NCBI GenBank assembly: GCA_022842285.1
Contig: JALHPV010000022.1
Location: 1-44,400, forward strand
Origin: Kofleriaceae bacterium
GTDB taxonomy: Bacteria; Myxococcota_A; Polyangia; Haliangiales; Haliangiaceae
Direction: 5' to 3'
Length of the DNA: 44,400 nucleotides
Each line of letters starts with the position of its first letter. Position 1 is the first letter of the stretch. The notes beneath the pieces are model-generated. The model was given only the letters and a program-made list of their open reading frames with translations, was not told the DNA's origin and ran no database searches. The position numbers and the translations under genes were made by a program. This document shows positions 9,125-44,400 of this stretch, piece by piece.

Positions 9125-10483
9125 CTAGCGCGGGTTGCCGAACTTGTCGGGTAGCCCGCCCGCGGGGGCGGCACCACTCACGTCGACGTCGAGGCTGTTC
9201 TCGCCTTCCTTGATCTCGACGGTGCTCTCGACCGGGTCATTCGCGCCCTCGAGATACGCCTTCACCTTGTACTTGCCCGGCGCGAGGCTCTTGAACGCGA
9301 ACGCGCCATCCTGAGCGACGACGTAGTGGGGCGCATCGACGACGACGATGTACGACGCCATGTTCGCGTGGATGTTGCAGCCGAGGCGCACGATGCCCGC
9401 CTTGTCCACCTTCACTTCGCGGGTCTCGCCCTGCTTGTAGAGGCCGAGGTCGAACGACTTCGCCTTCGAGACCGAAAACACGTTGTGATAGACGCCGTCC
9501 ATGTTCGGGAACGACAGGGTCGAGCCGACGGGCACGGCCATCAGGGCCGGCGCGAACTGACGTCCGCGCTGCTCGATGACGCGCTGCTTCGCCTTGCGCT
9601 TCTTGCCGCCCTTCGTCGGGTAGAGCATCACGACGCCCATCTTGCTGCCGGCGGATCCGACGAGCTTGCCGGCGAGCGAGCCCTTCGCCGGCTTCGCATC
9701 GGGTTCATCCGCCTCGGATCCACCGACGACCTGCGGCTGCGGCTCGCTGTCCGCGGGCACGGTCTTCACGGCCGTCGTGATCCGCTGGGGCGCCCCGGCG
9801 CGGAACACCGCGGCGATCGACGAGACCTCCTTCGGTCCCGTGATCAGCTCCGCGCGCGAGAACAGCTGCTCGGCATAATTGATCTGACCGCGCTCGCCGG
9901 CGATCACCGCCCGGTCGAGCAGGCGCTTCGCCTCGGGGTCCTTCACCTTGGCCGCGAGGAGCTGGACCTTGTCGAGCTGGTCCGGATCGATCGGCTTCAG
10001 GGTGCCCTTGGGCACCACCATGGTCGGCGCGAGCGGGCCGAGGGCGCCGAGCAGCTCGGCCTTCTCCTTCTCGGGCACCTTGAACTGCACGAGCGAGGCG
10101 ACGATCGCATCGACGAGCGCATTGAACTCCTCCTCGACGAGCTGCATGCCTGCGTGGCTCGTCTCCATCGAGCGCCCGGTGTACTTGCACCCGCCGCCGC
10201 CCGCGTAGCAGACGAACTCCGCGAGCAAGCGCTTCAGGTTCGGCACATCCGAGTTGAAGAACCGATCCTGGATCCGCGGATCCACCGCCGCGCGATTCAC
10301 GAAGTCGTCGACGACCGCCGTCACCGCCGGCTCGCCACCCAGACGCTCGTAGAGCGACGCCGGCGGCTTGGGCGCCGGGTCCGGCTTCGTCGTCTCGATG
10401 GGCGTCACCGGCACGGGATTCGTCTTGGCGCCGCCGCCGCAGCCAGCCGCCAGGATCAGAGCAACCATCCACCGCATGTTCAT
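9125..10483 (-). CDS. Lipoprotein fusing a truncated haemoglobin to a cupredoxin-like domain
   Basis: A 452-residue exported lipoprotein (lipobox LAAGC, Cys15). Residues ~43-155 form a group 1 truncated globin: LYERLGGEPAV at helix A, Phe75/76 at the CD corner, and proximal His110 in SMETSHAGM. The distal Tyr at B10 is replaced by Val62. Cys92 and Cys99 flank a Gly-rich turn and may form a disulfide. After a linker of ~100 residues, residues ~270-385 form a cupredoxin: His333 in VYHNVFS, then Cys369, His372 and Met375 in GCNIHANM, a complete type-1 copper ligand set. A carboxypeptidase-regulatory-like beta-sandwich (FAFKSLAPGKYKVKAYL) closes the chain. It therefore appears able to hold both heme and copper in the envelope; an electron-transfer or NO/O2 role is inferred. 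Confidence 0.85.
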   Translation of the reverse strand: MNMRWMVALILAAGCGGGAKTNPVPVTPIETTKPDPAPKPPASLYERLGGEPAVTAVVDDFVNRAAVDPRIQDRFFNSDVPNLKRLLAEFVCYAGGGGCKYTGRSMETSHAGMQLVEEEFNALVDAIVASLVQFKVPEKEKAELLGALGPLAPTMVVPKGTLKPIDPDQLDKVQLLAAKVKDPEAKRLLDRAVIAGERGQINYAEQLFSRAELITGPKEVSSIAAVFRAGAPQRITTAVKTVPADSEPQPQVVGGSEADEPDAKPAKGSLAGKLVGSAGSKMGVVMLYPTKGGKKRKAKQRVIEQRGRQFAPALMAVPVGSTLSFPNMDGVYHNVFSVSKAKSFDLGLYKQGETREVKVDKAGIVRLGCNIHANMASYIVVVDAPHYVVAQDGAFAFKSLAPGKYKVKAYLEGANDPVESTVEIKEGENSLDVDVSGAAPAGGLPDKFGNPR

Positions 10484-39462: not shown

Positions 39463-40431
39463 GTGCGAGTCCCCGTCATCGTGCTCACCGGCTTCCTCGG
39501 AGCCGGCAAGACGACGCTGCTGAACGCGCTGCTCGCGCGCCGCGCGGCGCGCAACGCCCCGGGCAAGGTGGGCGTGGTCGTCAACGAGCTCGGCGAGGTC
39601 GGGATCGATGGCGCGTTGTTGAGTGCGGGCACGGATGCGAAGCAGATCGAGCTGCCGGGGGGCTGCGTGTGCTGCGTGATGGGCGACGACCTGGGAGGCT
39701 CGCTCGTCGAGCTCGTCGACAGCACGCCCGGCATCGAGTCGATCATCCTCGAGACGACGGGGGTCGCCGAGCCGATCGGCATCGCGTGGGCGCTGCAGCG
39801 GCCCGGGGTGGTCGACCGCGTGCGGCTCGCGGCGGTCGTCACCCTCGTCGACACGACGAACTTCATCGCCTCGCGGCCGGTGTCGGTGGCGGTCGACGCA
39901 CAGGTGGCATATGCCGACATCTGCCTCGTGACGAAGGCGTCGCTCGCCGAGGGCAACGTCGCGTCAGTTCTGGCGACGATCGAGACACTCGCGCCGCGCG
40001 CCCTCGTGGAAATTCGAGACACGATCGGGCACGCCGCCTACCTCGACGAGCTCCTCGCGGATCCCGATCTCGAGCGTGCCAACCCGGATCCCGGTGAGCC
40101 CACCCACGTTCACGACGACACGTGTCGGCATTCCCACAGCCACGCTGCACACGGAATCGACAGCGTGTGGGTCGCCGCCGACGCTGCCCTCGACATCGAG
40201 GAGCTCGAGGACCAGCTCGCCGCCCTCCCTCCCAACTACGTGAGGATCAAGGGAATCGTCCGCGATCCGGGGGGCGCGTGGTTCGCGGTGCACCGCGTCG
40301 GGCCCCGTGTGTCGAGCGAGCCCGTCGAAACACCGAAAGCGTGGCAACCGCGCATCGTTGCGCTGGGTCCATTGGTCGAGGCCGCTCCGCTGACGGCCTG
40401 CGTCGCCGAGGCTGCCCGGATGGTCGGGTAA
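39463..40431 (+). CDS. COG0523 (CobW/ZNG1-type) metallochaperone GTPase
   Basis: A 322-residue GTPase beginning at GTG. Walker A is LTGFLGAGKTTLLNAL. The metal-binding Cys-x-Cys-Cys site is ELPGGCVCCVMGDDL, and the next conserved piece is LETTGVAEPIG. The usual Asn/Thr-Lys-x-Asp guanine motif reads LVTKASLAE, with Ser in place of Asp. A His-rich segment (HVHDDTCRHSHSHAAHG) at about residues 210-227 probably binds zinc, cobalt or nickel. The C-terminal domain (VRIKGIVRDPGGAWFAVHRV) is normal. Such proteins deliver metal to target enzymes; no target or zinc-uptake gene is nearby. It starts just after the nested inverted repeat. Confidence 0.92.
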   Translation: MRVPVIVLTGFLGAGKTTLLNALLARRAARNAPGKVGVVVNELGEVGIDGALLSAGTDAKQIELPGGCVCCVMGDDLGGSLVELVDSTPGIESIILETTGVAEPIGIAWALQRPGVVDRVRLAAVVTLVDTTNFIASRPVSVAVDAQVAYADICLVTKASLAEGNVASVLATIETLAPRALVEIRDTIGHAAYLDELLADPDLERANPDPGEPTHVHDDTCRHSHSHAAHGIDSVWVAADAALDIEELEDQLAALPPNYVRIKGIVRDPGGAWFAVHRVGPRVSSEPVETPKAWQPRIVALGPLVEAAPLTACVAEAARMVG

Positions 40432-41547: not shown

Positions 41548-42552
41548 CTAGCGTCGCGGCAAGCCCGGGTTCGCGAGTCGCACGCGATACAGCGAGGTCC
41601 GCGCCGTGATGTAGAGCGTGCGGTGATCGGCGTCGCCGAAGGCGCAGTTCGAGGGCTGCTCGGGGACGTCGATGGTGCCCCACGCCTCGCCGGTCGACGA
41701 GAACACCTCGACCCCAGCGGTCGACGTCACGAACACGTTGCCGTCCTCGTCGATGGCGAGCCCGTCGGCCCCGCCGGCGGTCGACGCGTGCACCGTACGC
41801 GTGCCGAGCGCCCCGTCGGGGCCGACCGGAAACCGGTAGACCTCGCCGTCGGCGGTGTCGGCGACGTAGAGCGTCGTGCCGTCGGGAGACAGTCCGATGC
41901 CATTCGGACGCGCCGAGAGCGGACCGCGGTGCTCCGCGGTGAGGACGTTGGACGGCGACAACCGAAACACGCCCATGAAGTCGAGCTCGGCGGCGGGCGG
42001 TTGGATGCCGTAGGGCGGATCCGTGAAGTACACGGTCCCGTCATCGGCGACGACGACATCGTTGGGCGAGTTGAGCCGGTCGCCCTCGAACGTCGATGCG
42101 ATCGCGACGCCGGCCCGCGTCACGTCACGTGCCCCATGGCGGGCGGCGTAGAGCATGCCGGCCGCGTCGACGGCGAGGCCATTGGCGTTCGCGCTCGGCC
42201 GCGTCAACACCGTGGCCGCGCCGGGGCCGGGCACGTACTGGTAGATGGTGTTCGCCGGGATGTCGGTGAACACGAGGTCTCCCTCGGTGTCGCGCCACTG
42301 CGGGCCCTCCGTGAACATGAAGCCGCCTTGCACCCGCTCGACGGTGCCGACGCCGACGAGCGGATCGCCCCCGCCGCCGGGACCGTCCGGGCTATCGGCA
42401 GGCGGACCATCGGCGGTCGGCGCATCCGCACTTGCCGCGTCCGGAAGCGTGGCTGGATCGCCATCACACCCCGCGGCGAGGGCGCTCGCGATCAACCACG
42501 GGGTCACGGCGCGAGAGCGGGGGACACGGGCAAGGAGCGAGGATGGAGGCAT
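41548..42552 (-). CDS. SMP-30/gluconolactonase-like lipoprotein
   Basis: A 334-residue lipoprotein (SRAVTPWLIASALAAGCDGD; lipobox AAGC). After a Pro/Asp-rich linker, a six-bladed propeller contains FTEGPQWRDTEGDLVFTDIP, PSANANGLAVDAAGMLYAAR, SPNDVVVADDGTVYFTDPPY and RPNGIGLSPDGTTLYVADTA. The Glu of FTEGP, Asn of SPND and Asp of the LSPDG-type blade are the expected divalent-metal ligands of SMP-30 lactonases. It probably hydrolyses a lactone or acts as a binding propeller in the envelope. It is divergent from the selenoprotein operon, with 120 bases between the starts. Its stop directly abuts the previous gene's stop. Confidence 0.85.
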   Translation of the reverse strand: MPPSSLLARVPRSRAVTPWLIASALAAGCDGDPATLPDAASADAPTADGPPADSPDGPGGGGDPLVGVGTVERVQGGFMFTEGPQWRDTEGDLVFTDIPANTIYQYVPGPGAATVLTRPSANANGLAVDAAGMLYAARHGARDVTRAGVAIASTFEGDRLNSPNDVVVADDGTVYFTDPPYGIQPPAAELDFMGVFRLSPSNVLTAEHRGPLSARPNGIGLSPDGTTLYVADTADGEVYRFPVGPDGALGTRTVHASTAGGADGLAIDEDGNVFVTSTAGVEVFSSTGEAWGTIDVPEQPSNCAFGDADHRTLYITARTSLYRVRLANPGLPRR

Positions 42553-42672
42553 CGTGCGGGACGAGGATAGGGCCGTCCGCTCCGCGGGACCAGCGCCGAG
42601 CAGGCCGGTCGCGGCGCGGGGAACTCGCGCGTGCCCGTGTAACCTCGGACGCCGTGGTACGTAGGCTCCGGC

Positions 42673-43974
42673 ATGCGCGCCCTCGCCGTCGTACTCGCCG
42701 CTGTCAGCTGGCTCGGTTTCGCCGCGGCTCCGGCAGCGGCGCAATGCACGACCTGAGTGAATCCCGCGCTCCCGGGCGGAGCGGATGGCGCTGTTGACGC
42801 CCCGGACACCGATGGGTGGCTGGTCTCGTCGCGCCTGGCGTACACGTTCGTGCCCTACGGAGAGCTCCAGCAGGGCACCGCGGATGCACCGAATCCCAGC
42901 GACCTCGCGATCGCGGTTCACCTCGGTTCGCTCCAGGCGACCGCCGTCGCACCGACCGGCACCTCGCTCGACCTCCAGCTTCCGTTCGGGTCCCTGCGCA
43001 CGACGTCGCTGGTCGGCGCACGCACGGATCGCGGGCTCGGAGATCTCGAGCTGCGGATCCGGCAGAGCTCCTCGCGGTGGCTGCGGCGACCGCGCTTGGG
43101 CGCCACCGTTGGTCTCGCCCTGCCGACCGGCGACTACGTGGCGCGCAGTGGCGCCGCGAACCTCCCGCCCGAAGCGGTGACGCTCGCGCTGGGGCGCGGG
43201 ACCGTCTGGCTCATTGGCGAGGCCGATGCGCAGGTCGCGATCGCGACCCGCGGCTCCGTGTTCACTCAGCTCTCGGGACGAGCGCCGCTCGGTCGCACGA
43301 GTGATGACTTCTCGTGGGGAGCCGAGCTGCGCGCGAGCGTGGGGGGCACCTTCGTCGCCTCGAGCCGCTGGTCGCTCCTCGGGACGGTCGACCTGCAGTG
43401 GCGAGGAGGGGCGACCGAGCCCGACCCCTTCTCGAGCATGCGGCTCGAGAGCGCGAATGCGGGCGGCGTGTGGTTCACGGCGAGCCCCGCGGTGCGGTGC
43501 GCCGTCACATCCGAGCTCGCGATCACGGCCGGCGCGCGGCTCGCCCTCGCCGCCGATGTCACCGGCAATCAACTCGTCCCGCAGGCCGGTGGCTTCGTGG
43601 CCCTCTCGCTGTCGCGGGCGGTGGCCTCGCCGCCGGCAGCTCGTCGGTCCGAGGAACCGGTGGCGCGCGCACCCACCGGGCGCATCGTCGTCGTGGACTA
43701 CTGGGCCACGTGGTGCAAGCCGTGCGAACAGATCGACGCCGACCTGCGTGCGGCCGAGTCCCGCTGGGACGACGTGCAGATCGAGCGGGTCGACGCGACG
43801 GAGTGGCCTGATCCCGCCGCGCCTGCCCTTCCCATCGGGGCGAGCGGCCTACCGGTGGTAGAGATCTATGATGCGAGGGGGCAGCGAACCCACTTGCTGG
43901 TTGGTACCGATGCCACCCGTGTAGTCGAGATCGTCGACTCGATCCGGTCGTCCCCGAAAGGAATCACACCATGA
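42673..43974 (+). CDS. Putative selenoprotein: secreted beta-barrel with N-terminal CxxU and C-terminal thioredoxin domain
   Basis: A 433-residue protein if the in-frame TGA at 42754-42756 is read as Sec28. The N-terminus MRALAVVLAAVSWLGFAAAP is a clear signal peptide with cleavage near AAA|QC. The next residues are Gln-Cys25-Thr-Thr-Sec28-Val-Asn-Pro, giving a Cys-x2-Sec pair. Residues ~30-320 alternate hydrophobic and polar and look like an outer-membrane barrel (LVSSRLAYTFVPYGELQQG). The last ~105 residues form a thioredoxin domain with WATWCKPC (Cys348, Cys351) and cis-Pro394 in GLPVVEIYD. Starting at the GTG after the TGA would lose the signal, so it is rejected. A SECIS-like hairpin follows the TGA, and the end overlaps the next gene as ATGA. 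Confidence 0.8.
42767..42783 (+). promoter_or_regulatory. SECIS-like hairpin for the first selenoprotein
   Basis: Beginning 10 bases after the TGA, CGCTCC and GGAGCG form a 6-bp stem around the loop CGGGC. GG is in the loop at +18/+19 from the TGA. Bacterial SECIS elements have a short stem-loop with a conserved G near the start of the loop at about this distance, and bind SelB. The geometry is identical to that at 44248-44264. Confidence 0.72.
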
Positions 43975-44400
43975 AGCTCGCCCTTACCTCCTCGCTCCTG
44001 ATCTCGCTTTCGGTCATGGCCTTCGCCTGCGGAGGCACCCCCAGCTCTGATCCCGACGGCGTCGGAAGCGGCGAGCCCGACGCGCCGATCGCGATGATCG
44101 ACTCGAGCATGACCTCCGACCGACCGGCGTGGATGCTCGAGGATGTCCAGCCCGAGTCACCGCGCGCAGGGCAGACGTACGGCCTCGACACGTTCGGCAA
44201 CAAGACCGTTGTCGTGGTCTTGCTGGAAGGGTTTTGAAGCGCCTGTCGGTCCCAGGCTGGGACCATCGATGCACTGGTGACGGGGCTGCGCGACGACGGT
44301 TACCCCGTCGAGCTCGTGGTCCTGTCGGACGCGAACGCGACGGATTTCGTCGGGAGAACGGCGGTGCCGATCTTCCGCGATCCATCGGGGACGCGGATGG
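43971..44400 (+). CDS. Putative selenoprotein: thioredoxin-fold lipoprotein with UxxC (partial, runs off window)
   Basis: The frame opens with a lipoprotein signal (MKLALTSSLLISLSVMAFAC; Cys20). After a linker rich in Asp/Ser/Pro comes GNKTVVVVLLEGF. A TGA at 44235-44237 follows as Sec89, then Ser-Ala-Cys92-Arg-Ser-Gln. The frame continues open to the window end for 163 bases with clear thioredoxin-fold character: GYPVELVVLSDANATDF and the cis-Pro133 of TAVPIFRDPSG. The Sec-x2-Cys pair lies at the start of the expected helix after the first core strand, as in thioredoxins and peroxiredoxin-like redoxins. The ribosome site GAAAGGA precedes the ATG, which overlaps the previous stop as ATGA. Confidence 0.82.
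44248..44264 (+). promoter_or_regulatory. SECIS-like hairpin for the second selenoprotein
   Basis: Beginning 10 bases after the TGA, GGTCCC and GGGACC form a 6-bp stem around AGGCT; the closing A-T can add a seventh pair. The 17-base unit has the same length as the core of the E. coli fdhF SECIS and shares AGG at the start of the loop (recalled knowledge). Confidence 0.78.

Follow-up and report, generated by a model that had tools for sequence, protein, structure and literature searches.

A predicted selenoprotein channel of the outer membrane with a Cys-x-x-Sec tip and a fused thioredoxin domain

A selenoprotein gene with signal peptide, barrel and thioredoxin domain

We describe a gene that very likely encodes a true selenoprotein, one of a large family that none of the sources searched by us lists. 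Its product combines a signal peptide, a Cys-x-x-Sec (CxxU) tip, a 12-stranded outer-membrane barrel and a thioredoxin domain. The gene occupies positions 42673–43974 on the plus strand of the window, by which we mean the whole 44,400-nucleotide stretch of Kofleriaceae DNA that was analysed. The frame opens with ATG at 42673, carries an in-frame TGA at codon 28 and remains open to the stop codon TGA at 43972–43974, giving a product of 433 aa. Start codons and cleavage sites are inferred here and below, most of the genomes are metagenome assemblies, and there is no wet-laboratory evidence.

The predicted signal peptide (residues 1–23, 42673–42741) reads MRALAVVLAAVSWLGFAAAPAAA and is followed by Q-C-T-T-U; it is a hydrophobic leader whose AxA-Q ending is conserved in the orthologues. 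Cleavage before Gln24 is inferred from the sequence. An AAQ-C sequence is not a lipobox. Since no lipobox precedes Cys25, we rejected the possibility that the channel protein is a lipoprotein, and its mature N-terminus is expected at Gln24, directly adjoining the motif Cys25-Thr-Thr-Sec28 (42745–42756, with the TGA codon at 42754–42756). The residues after Sec28 are VNPALPGG, and a SECIS-type hairpin (CGCTCC-CGGGC-GGAGCG, 42767–42783) lies just 3' of the UGA. The barrel comprises residues 49–317 (42817–43623), and the thioredoxin domain follows at residues 336–426 (43678–43950), with the sequence WCKPC at residues 347–351 (43711–43725). Residues 337–401 match PF00085 with an E-value of 1.5e-8 and 35 bits, above the curated cut-off of 23.5, and W347, C348, C351 and P394 are invariant across 44 fused members. 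In its WCxPC site and its fold the domain resembles thioredoxin and TlpA-like thiol-disulfide oxidoreductases, from which it differs in being attached to an outer-membrane channel.

An earlier note, made from the sequence alone, had proposed a signal peptide separated by an in-frame TGA from a barrel protein in the same frame, a C-T-T-U motif at the predicted mature N-terminus with the TGA read as Sec, and a complete WCKPC thioredoxin domain at the C-terminus. All of these proposals held: the Sec reading on comparative evidence, the barrel (at that time a guess) through an AlphaFold2 model with 12 strands, and the thioredoxin domain through PF00085 and AlphaFold2. The suggested novelty of the architecture is also real, in that Pfam, NCBIfam and the selenoprotein reviews searched contained no example of it. 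The idea of two redox centres joined through a barrel held only in part, as a matter of anatomy, since no electron path has been demonstrated. The note had missed the next gene, which starts at 43971 and has its own Sec-type TGA at 44235–44237.

The in-frame TGA almost certainly encodes selenocysteine

On comparative evidence, it is almost certain that the TGA at 42754–42756 encodes Sec. This rests on the orthologues, the exchange of Sec and Cys, the SECIS-type hairpin, the Sec machinery and the co-occurrence with SelB. All 10 orthologues found, which come from the same genus and family and are 50–58% identical, carry the same TGA codon within the context AQCTTU-V-NP[AS]LPGGA. This is more than would be expected by chance, and the coding sequence is conserved on both sides of the UGA.

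Across the family, both positions of the motif are occupied by Sec or Cys. We collected 132 distinct members from profile-search matches in genomes of the phylum and from a DNA pattern scan. At exactly these positions, 81 of them have UxxU, 39 CxxU and 12 CxxC. Because the scan pattern demanded a TGA, these shares overstate the Sec forms. The exchange of Sec and Cys has occurred repeatedly, with the tree requiring at least nine changes at the first position and at least four at the second; the 12 members with Cys at the UGA position reflect several independent changes.

The source genome contains SelA, SelB, SelD and tRNA-Sec (anticodon TCA). Among the genomes with Sec forms, 32 of 34 contain the SelB wing domain, against one of seven with CxxC forms alone (Fisher P 4e-5). 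One of the two Sec-form genomes that lack it is only 59% complete. The P values ignore phylogeny.

The alternative that the TGA is a real stop, with translation starting at GTG 42757 and no signal peptide, is all but excluded. An open frame from this GTG does exist, and GTG is present at that place in 10 of 12 CTTU members. However, it is replaced by GTT or GTC in the other two, and in other Sec members the codon after the TGA is mostly no start codon. Every orthologue keeps what precedes the TGA, both signal peptide and CTT, and the SECIS-type hairpin, the Cys homologues and the Sec machinery all contradict a real stop. Thus, the observations that the earlier note had named as refutations did not materialize: no homologue was seen that lacks a signal peptide and begins at the GTG, and instead of lacking Cys or Sec at the TGA position, the homologues have one or the other throughout. 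A sequencing error as the source of the TGA is excluded by the independent orthologues.

Two nearly identical tRNA-Sec genes, both with anticodon TCA, lie about 7 kb apart (G000:C163:3030-3125 and 10027-10122; L002, L003). They represent a duplicated selC and not a longer assembly repeat; their flanks are unrelated.

A SECIS-type hairpin directly follows the UGA

In the Sec genes, a stem of about six pairs is located roughly 13–30 nt from the UGA, with a GGUC or CGGGU loop, and the stem is retained in the CTTU clade. Positions 18 and 27, which pair in this hairpin, are the wobble positions of Leu33 and Gly36, and changes at both are synonymous. Among the 81 UxxU genes, the pair is C-G in 31, G-C in 15 and U-A in 12, so that 58 genes have a Watson-Crick pair where 29.6 would be expected, a count reached in 0 of 4000 shuffles (without correction for relatedness). 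Codon choice points the same way: Pro34 is encoded by CCG in 118 of 119 Sec genes, compared with 51% in the remainder of these genes, and Val35 by GTC in 61 of 62, compared with 42%. No such hairpin is found in the CxxC genes. The folding energy after the UGA, compared with synonymous shuffles, showed only a weak shift for UxxU genes (mean z -0.39) and none for CxxU genes. The SECIS stem-loop is therefore supported by covariation and the codon tests, with minimum free energy alone being weak evidence.

The barrel resembles COG4313 channels

AlphaFold2, run with a 44-sequence alignment, gave 12 strands at residues 49–317, for the most part with pLDDT above 90, followed by a thioredoxin fold (residues 338–426; mean pLDDT of the model 85.8). 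The barrel alone, modelled with 115 sequences, reached a mean of 89.5. In a Foldseek search, the best solved match of the barrel was the COG4313 channel 4RL8 (E 3.6e-12), with a TM-score of 0.78 normalised to the target and 16% identity. PF13557 is matched by 15 of 115 family members (best E 5.9e-11), but not by the window protein itself. We thus regard the channel as having the same fold as, and being a distant relative of, COG4313/PF13557, without filing it as a member. Like Pput2725 (PDB 4RL8) of the COG4313/PF13557 (Phenol_MetA_deg) group, it has a 12-stranded barrel with a short segment before strand 1; unlike those channels, it has a conserved [U/C]xx[U/C]-x-NPxLP tip, Sec, and a thioredoxin that is fused or adjacent.

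In 4RL8, the lumen is constricted by the N-terminal ~14 residues, which fold into it on the periplasmic side (PMC4493636). The CTTU motif sits in the equivalent segment, which by analogy would place the Cys-Sec tip in the channel lumen. The models do not show this. Both leave the N-terminal tip disordered, and residues 1–18 of the model of the mature form have pLDDT below 50. Neither removal of the signal peptide nor the use of 115 sequences brought the tip into the barrel. The lumen position hence remains an inference. Barrels of this kind have both termini in the periplasm, so that the motif and the thioredoxin domain are probably on the same side of the membrane.

A second selenoprotein gene follows the channel gene

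The next gene on the plus strand (43971–44400) overlaps the channel gene by four bases and encodes a redoxin lipoprotein (PF08534, E 3.9e-6). It is cut short because the contig ends there. Its in-frame Sec-type TGA at 44235–44237 gives the site Sec89-Ser-Ala-Cys92 (44235–44246), followed by a SECIS-type hairpin of its own (GGTCCCA-GGC-TGGGACC, 44248–44264). In all 11 redoxin genes, the sequence after the UGA is able to form a hairpin; nine fold it as the minimum free energy structure, and L008 shows a compensatory change from a G-C to an A-T pair. The redoxin gene follows the channel gene in 10 of 10 orthologues, with the motif [ED]GFU-xx-CRSQ. The two genes thus appear to form a compact redox operon in which the redoxin has its own Sec-x-x-Cys site. 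Beyond the redoxin, no neighbour is common to the orthologues, the flanks differ between genomes, and we rejected a larger conserved operon.

The partner gene resembles NF053656, a thioredoxin-fold (seleno)protein with a TUGYCR motif, in its redoxin-like fold and UxxC-type site. The match (E 6.6e-7, 29.3 bits) is below the curated cut-off of 100, for a gene that is truncated by the contig end. The partner differs in its motif, GFU-S-A-C-R, and in being a lipoprotein paired with a channel.

Redoxin-type lipoproteins also adjoin several CATU relatives. At L145, L152, L182, L196 and further loci of the CATU type, the gene directly upstream of the channel encodes a large Cys-rich lipoprotein that ends in a redoxin-like domain with WCxPC.

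The family spans several phyla and is coupled to thioredoxin

A search with the channel profile gave matches in 142 of 379 genomes of the phylum, comprising Sec and Cys forms and including some distant hits. Hosts include Kofleriaceae, Polyangiaceae, Archangium, Pyxidicoccus, Paraliomyxa, Neomarinimicrobiota, Acidobacteriota and Zixiibacteriota; the Planctomycetota members have long, uncertain tree branches. Only the two Sec/Cys positions, one Pro and one Asp are invariant among 115 members. The form with two Sec residues, UxxU, is the commonest, and the window protein represents one branch of this larger multi-phylum family; that branch comprises the CTTU and CATU members and their CxxC relatives.

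In a pattern test, thioredoxin was fused C-terminally in 58 of 132 members and encoded by an adjacent gene in 34 (32 upstream, two downstream). The test found none in the remaining 40, many of which have short flanks or a thioredoxin that escaped the pattern. When a profile was used to search within 5 kb, 34 members still lacked thioredoxin, largely from Neomarinimicrobiota; half of these have flanks longer than 1.2 kb. Fusion in some members and adjacency in others is a classical sign of a functional pair. For the neighbour analysis we used same-strand neighbours, as clustering of all open frames was swamped by spurious frames on the opposite strand.

Four members (L038, L039, L040, L067) have only the second Cys (ATC[NS]NPG[LV]P), and hence a single-thiol tip, together with a fused WCAPC thioredoxin. 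Two further records on CAMDBH01 contigs (L130, L163) are titled Klebsiella pneumoniae but contain Myxococcota-type members and match genome G228 of the window's phylum. They are likely a mislabelled metagenome assembly.

Relation to known selenoproteins

The motif and the barrel together are not covered by any model in Pfam or NCBIfam; single relatives reach PF13557. Of outer-membrane families, a 2026 table of prokaryotic selenoproteins includes two, both different from this channel, which is absent from it (PMC13188914). We found no such protein in the literature searched, but subscription papers and preprints were mostly outside the search, so that this does not prove absence. The MtrB/PioB-type GSU2204 family (NF041027) and the FCYxU TonB-dependent receptor (NF049945) are also outer-membrane barrels with Sec (PMC13188914). 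They belong to different families: neither model was hit when the window protein, its paralogues and 115 barrel regions were scanned against NCBIfam. The Sec-assisted organometallic (SAO) operon and the UxxU metal-binding protein NF041115 share with our family the UxxU motif and Sec in metal-related operons (PMC13188914), and HMA domains occur beside some channel family members, as in that metal-linked setting. However, SAO and NF041115 have no channel, and the channel does not match their models. Thus, the parts are known, while the combination and the family appear to be new.

The family is apparently an undescribed and widespread one. Most of its Sec members carry two Sec residues, and outer-membrane channels are a type of protein for which Sec is scarcely known. 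With three matched forms occurring in nature (UxxU, CxxU and CxxC) and hosts in culture, the question of what Sec offers over Cys can be tested in a protein of the envelope. Members in cultured strains include those of Polyangium sp. 15x6 (UGAU), Paraliomyxa miuraensis SMH-27-4 (UAGU), and Pyxidicoccus caerfyrddinensis CA032A and Archangium violaceum Cb vi76 (both CAGU). A whole envelope redox or metal system may have been hidden by annotation that ends genes at TGA.

Possible functions of the channel

We lean towards a thiol/selenol relay as the main role of the channel, without wet evidence. What computation has shown is the Sec decoding, the family, the fold, and the coupling to thioredoxin and redoxin; the lumen position, the direction of electron flow, the substrate and any gating are inferred. 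In this view, electrons from the periplasmic thiol system (the source genome encodes a DsbD-type protein) would pass to the redoxin and/or the thioredoxin domain, and from there to the Cys25-Sec28 pair, which would be kept reduced at the periplasmic mouth of the channel. The pair would lie in an N-terminal segment folded into the lumen from the periplasmic side, as in the COG4313 structure. The reduced selenolate could then reduce or capture a substrate that arrives through the channel, be it a peroxide, a disulfide or a metalloid. Alternatively, formation and breakage of an Se-S bond might open and close the channel. Uptake of hydrophobic small molecules would be a further criterion for membership of the COG4313/PF13557 class.

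A bolder reading, possible but less likely than not, is that of a selenium-gated or selenium-powered channel, whose Cys-Sec or Sec-Sec tip would lie in the lumen and be switched by a thioredoxin/redoxin system of the periplasm dedicated to it. If true, bacteria of Myxococcota, Neomarinimicrobiota, Acidobacteriota and other phyla would share a means of carrying out redox or metal chemistry directly at the outer membrane.

The main rival to the relay is soft-metal handling, which is possible. Here, the [U/C]xxU tip would bind a soft metal such as Cu(I), Ag(I) or Hg(II) where the channel opens to the periplasm, the thioredoxin would keep the tip reduced, and the channel would serve metal export, uptake or detoxification. 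In favour of this reading, the UxxU-rich group has conserved HHR and HxH motifs, with His-rich linkers or separate HMA-thioredoxin lipoproteins; the thioredoxin partners of unfused members often contain an HMA domain (PF00403, E 8.9e-11) or CxHxVPxxxC. In one UxxU channel (L035, G004:C94), the fused thioredoxin is followed by a C-terminal cupredoxin (PF13473, E 2.5e-10), and a mer-like UxxU locus in Neomarinimicrobiota (L189) encodes MerR, two HMA proteins, a CopZ-type zinc/2Fe-2S protein and DUF2231. Against it, the histidines and the His-rich linker are present in 0 of 12 CTTU members of the window's branch. This branch has short linkers and no HMA partner; instead, several of its members have redoxin-type lipoproteins next door. 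In the UxxU group, a role in metal binding is no less likely than a relay, and the metal-binding partners of other branches may mean that the family has a different job.

It appears unlikely that the Cys-Sec pair and the thioredoxin domain act on Cys-rich surface lipoproteins close to the outer membrane, reducing or rearranging their disulfides. Several lipoproteins encoded next to CATU members are indeed rich in Cys, with a redoxin-like WCxPC domain at the C-terminus, and Cys-rich neighbours are found in 9 of 31 cases in the CATU group versus 5 of 126 elsewhere. However, these neighbours resemble redox partners and not substrates, the CTTU group has no Cys-rich neighbour, and such a job needs no channel.

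Other genes near the channel gene

The following assignments are based on translation only. A 674-aa open frame on the minus strand (41548–43572) overlaps the channel gene, and its N-terminal part looks spurious. The real gene within it appears to encode an SMP-30/gluconolactonase-like lipoprotein ending at 41548. Two genes upstream of this SMP-30-like gene, which faces the channel gene, a CobW-like GTPase is encoded at 39463–40431; it has a GGCVCC motif and a His-rich stretch and likely is a metal chaperone.
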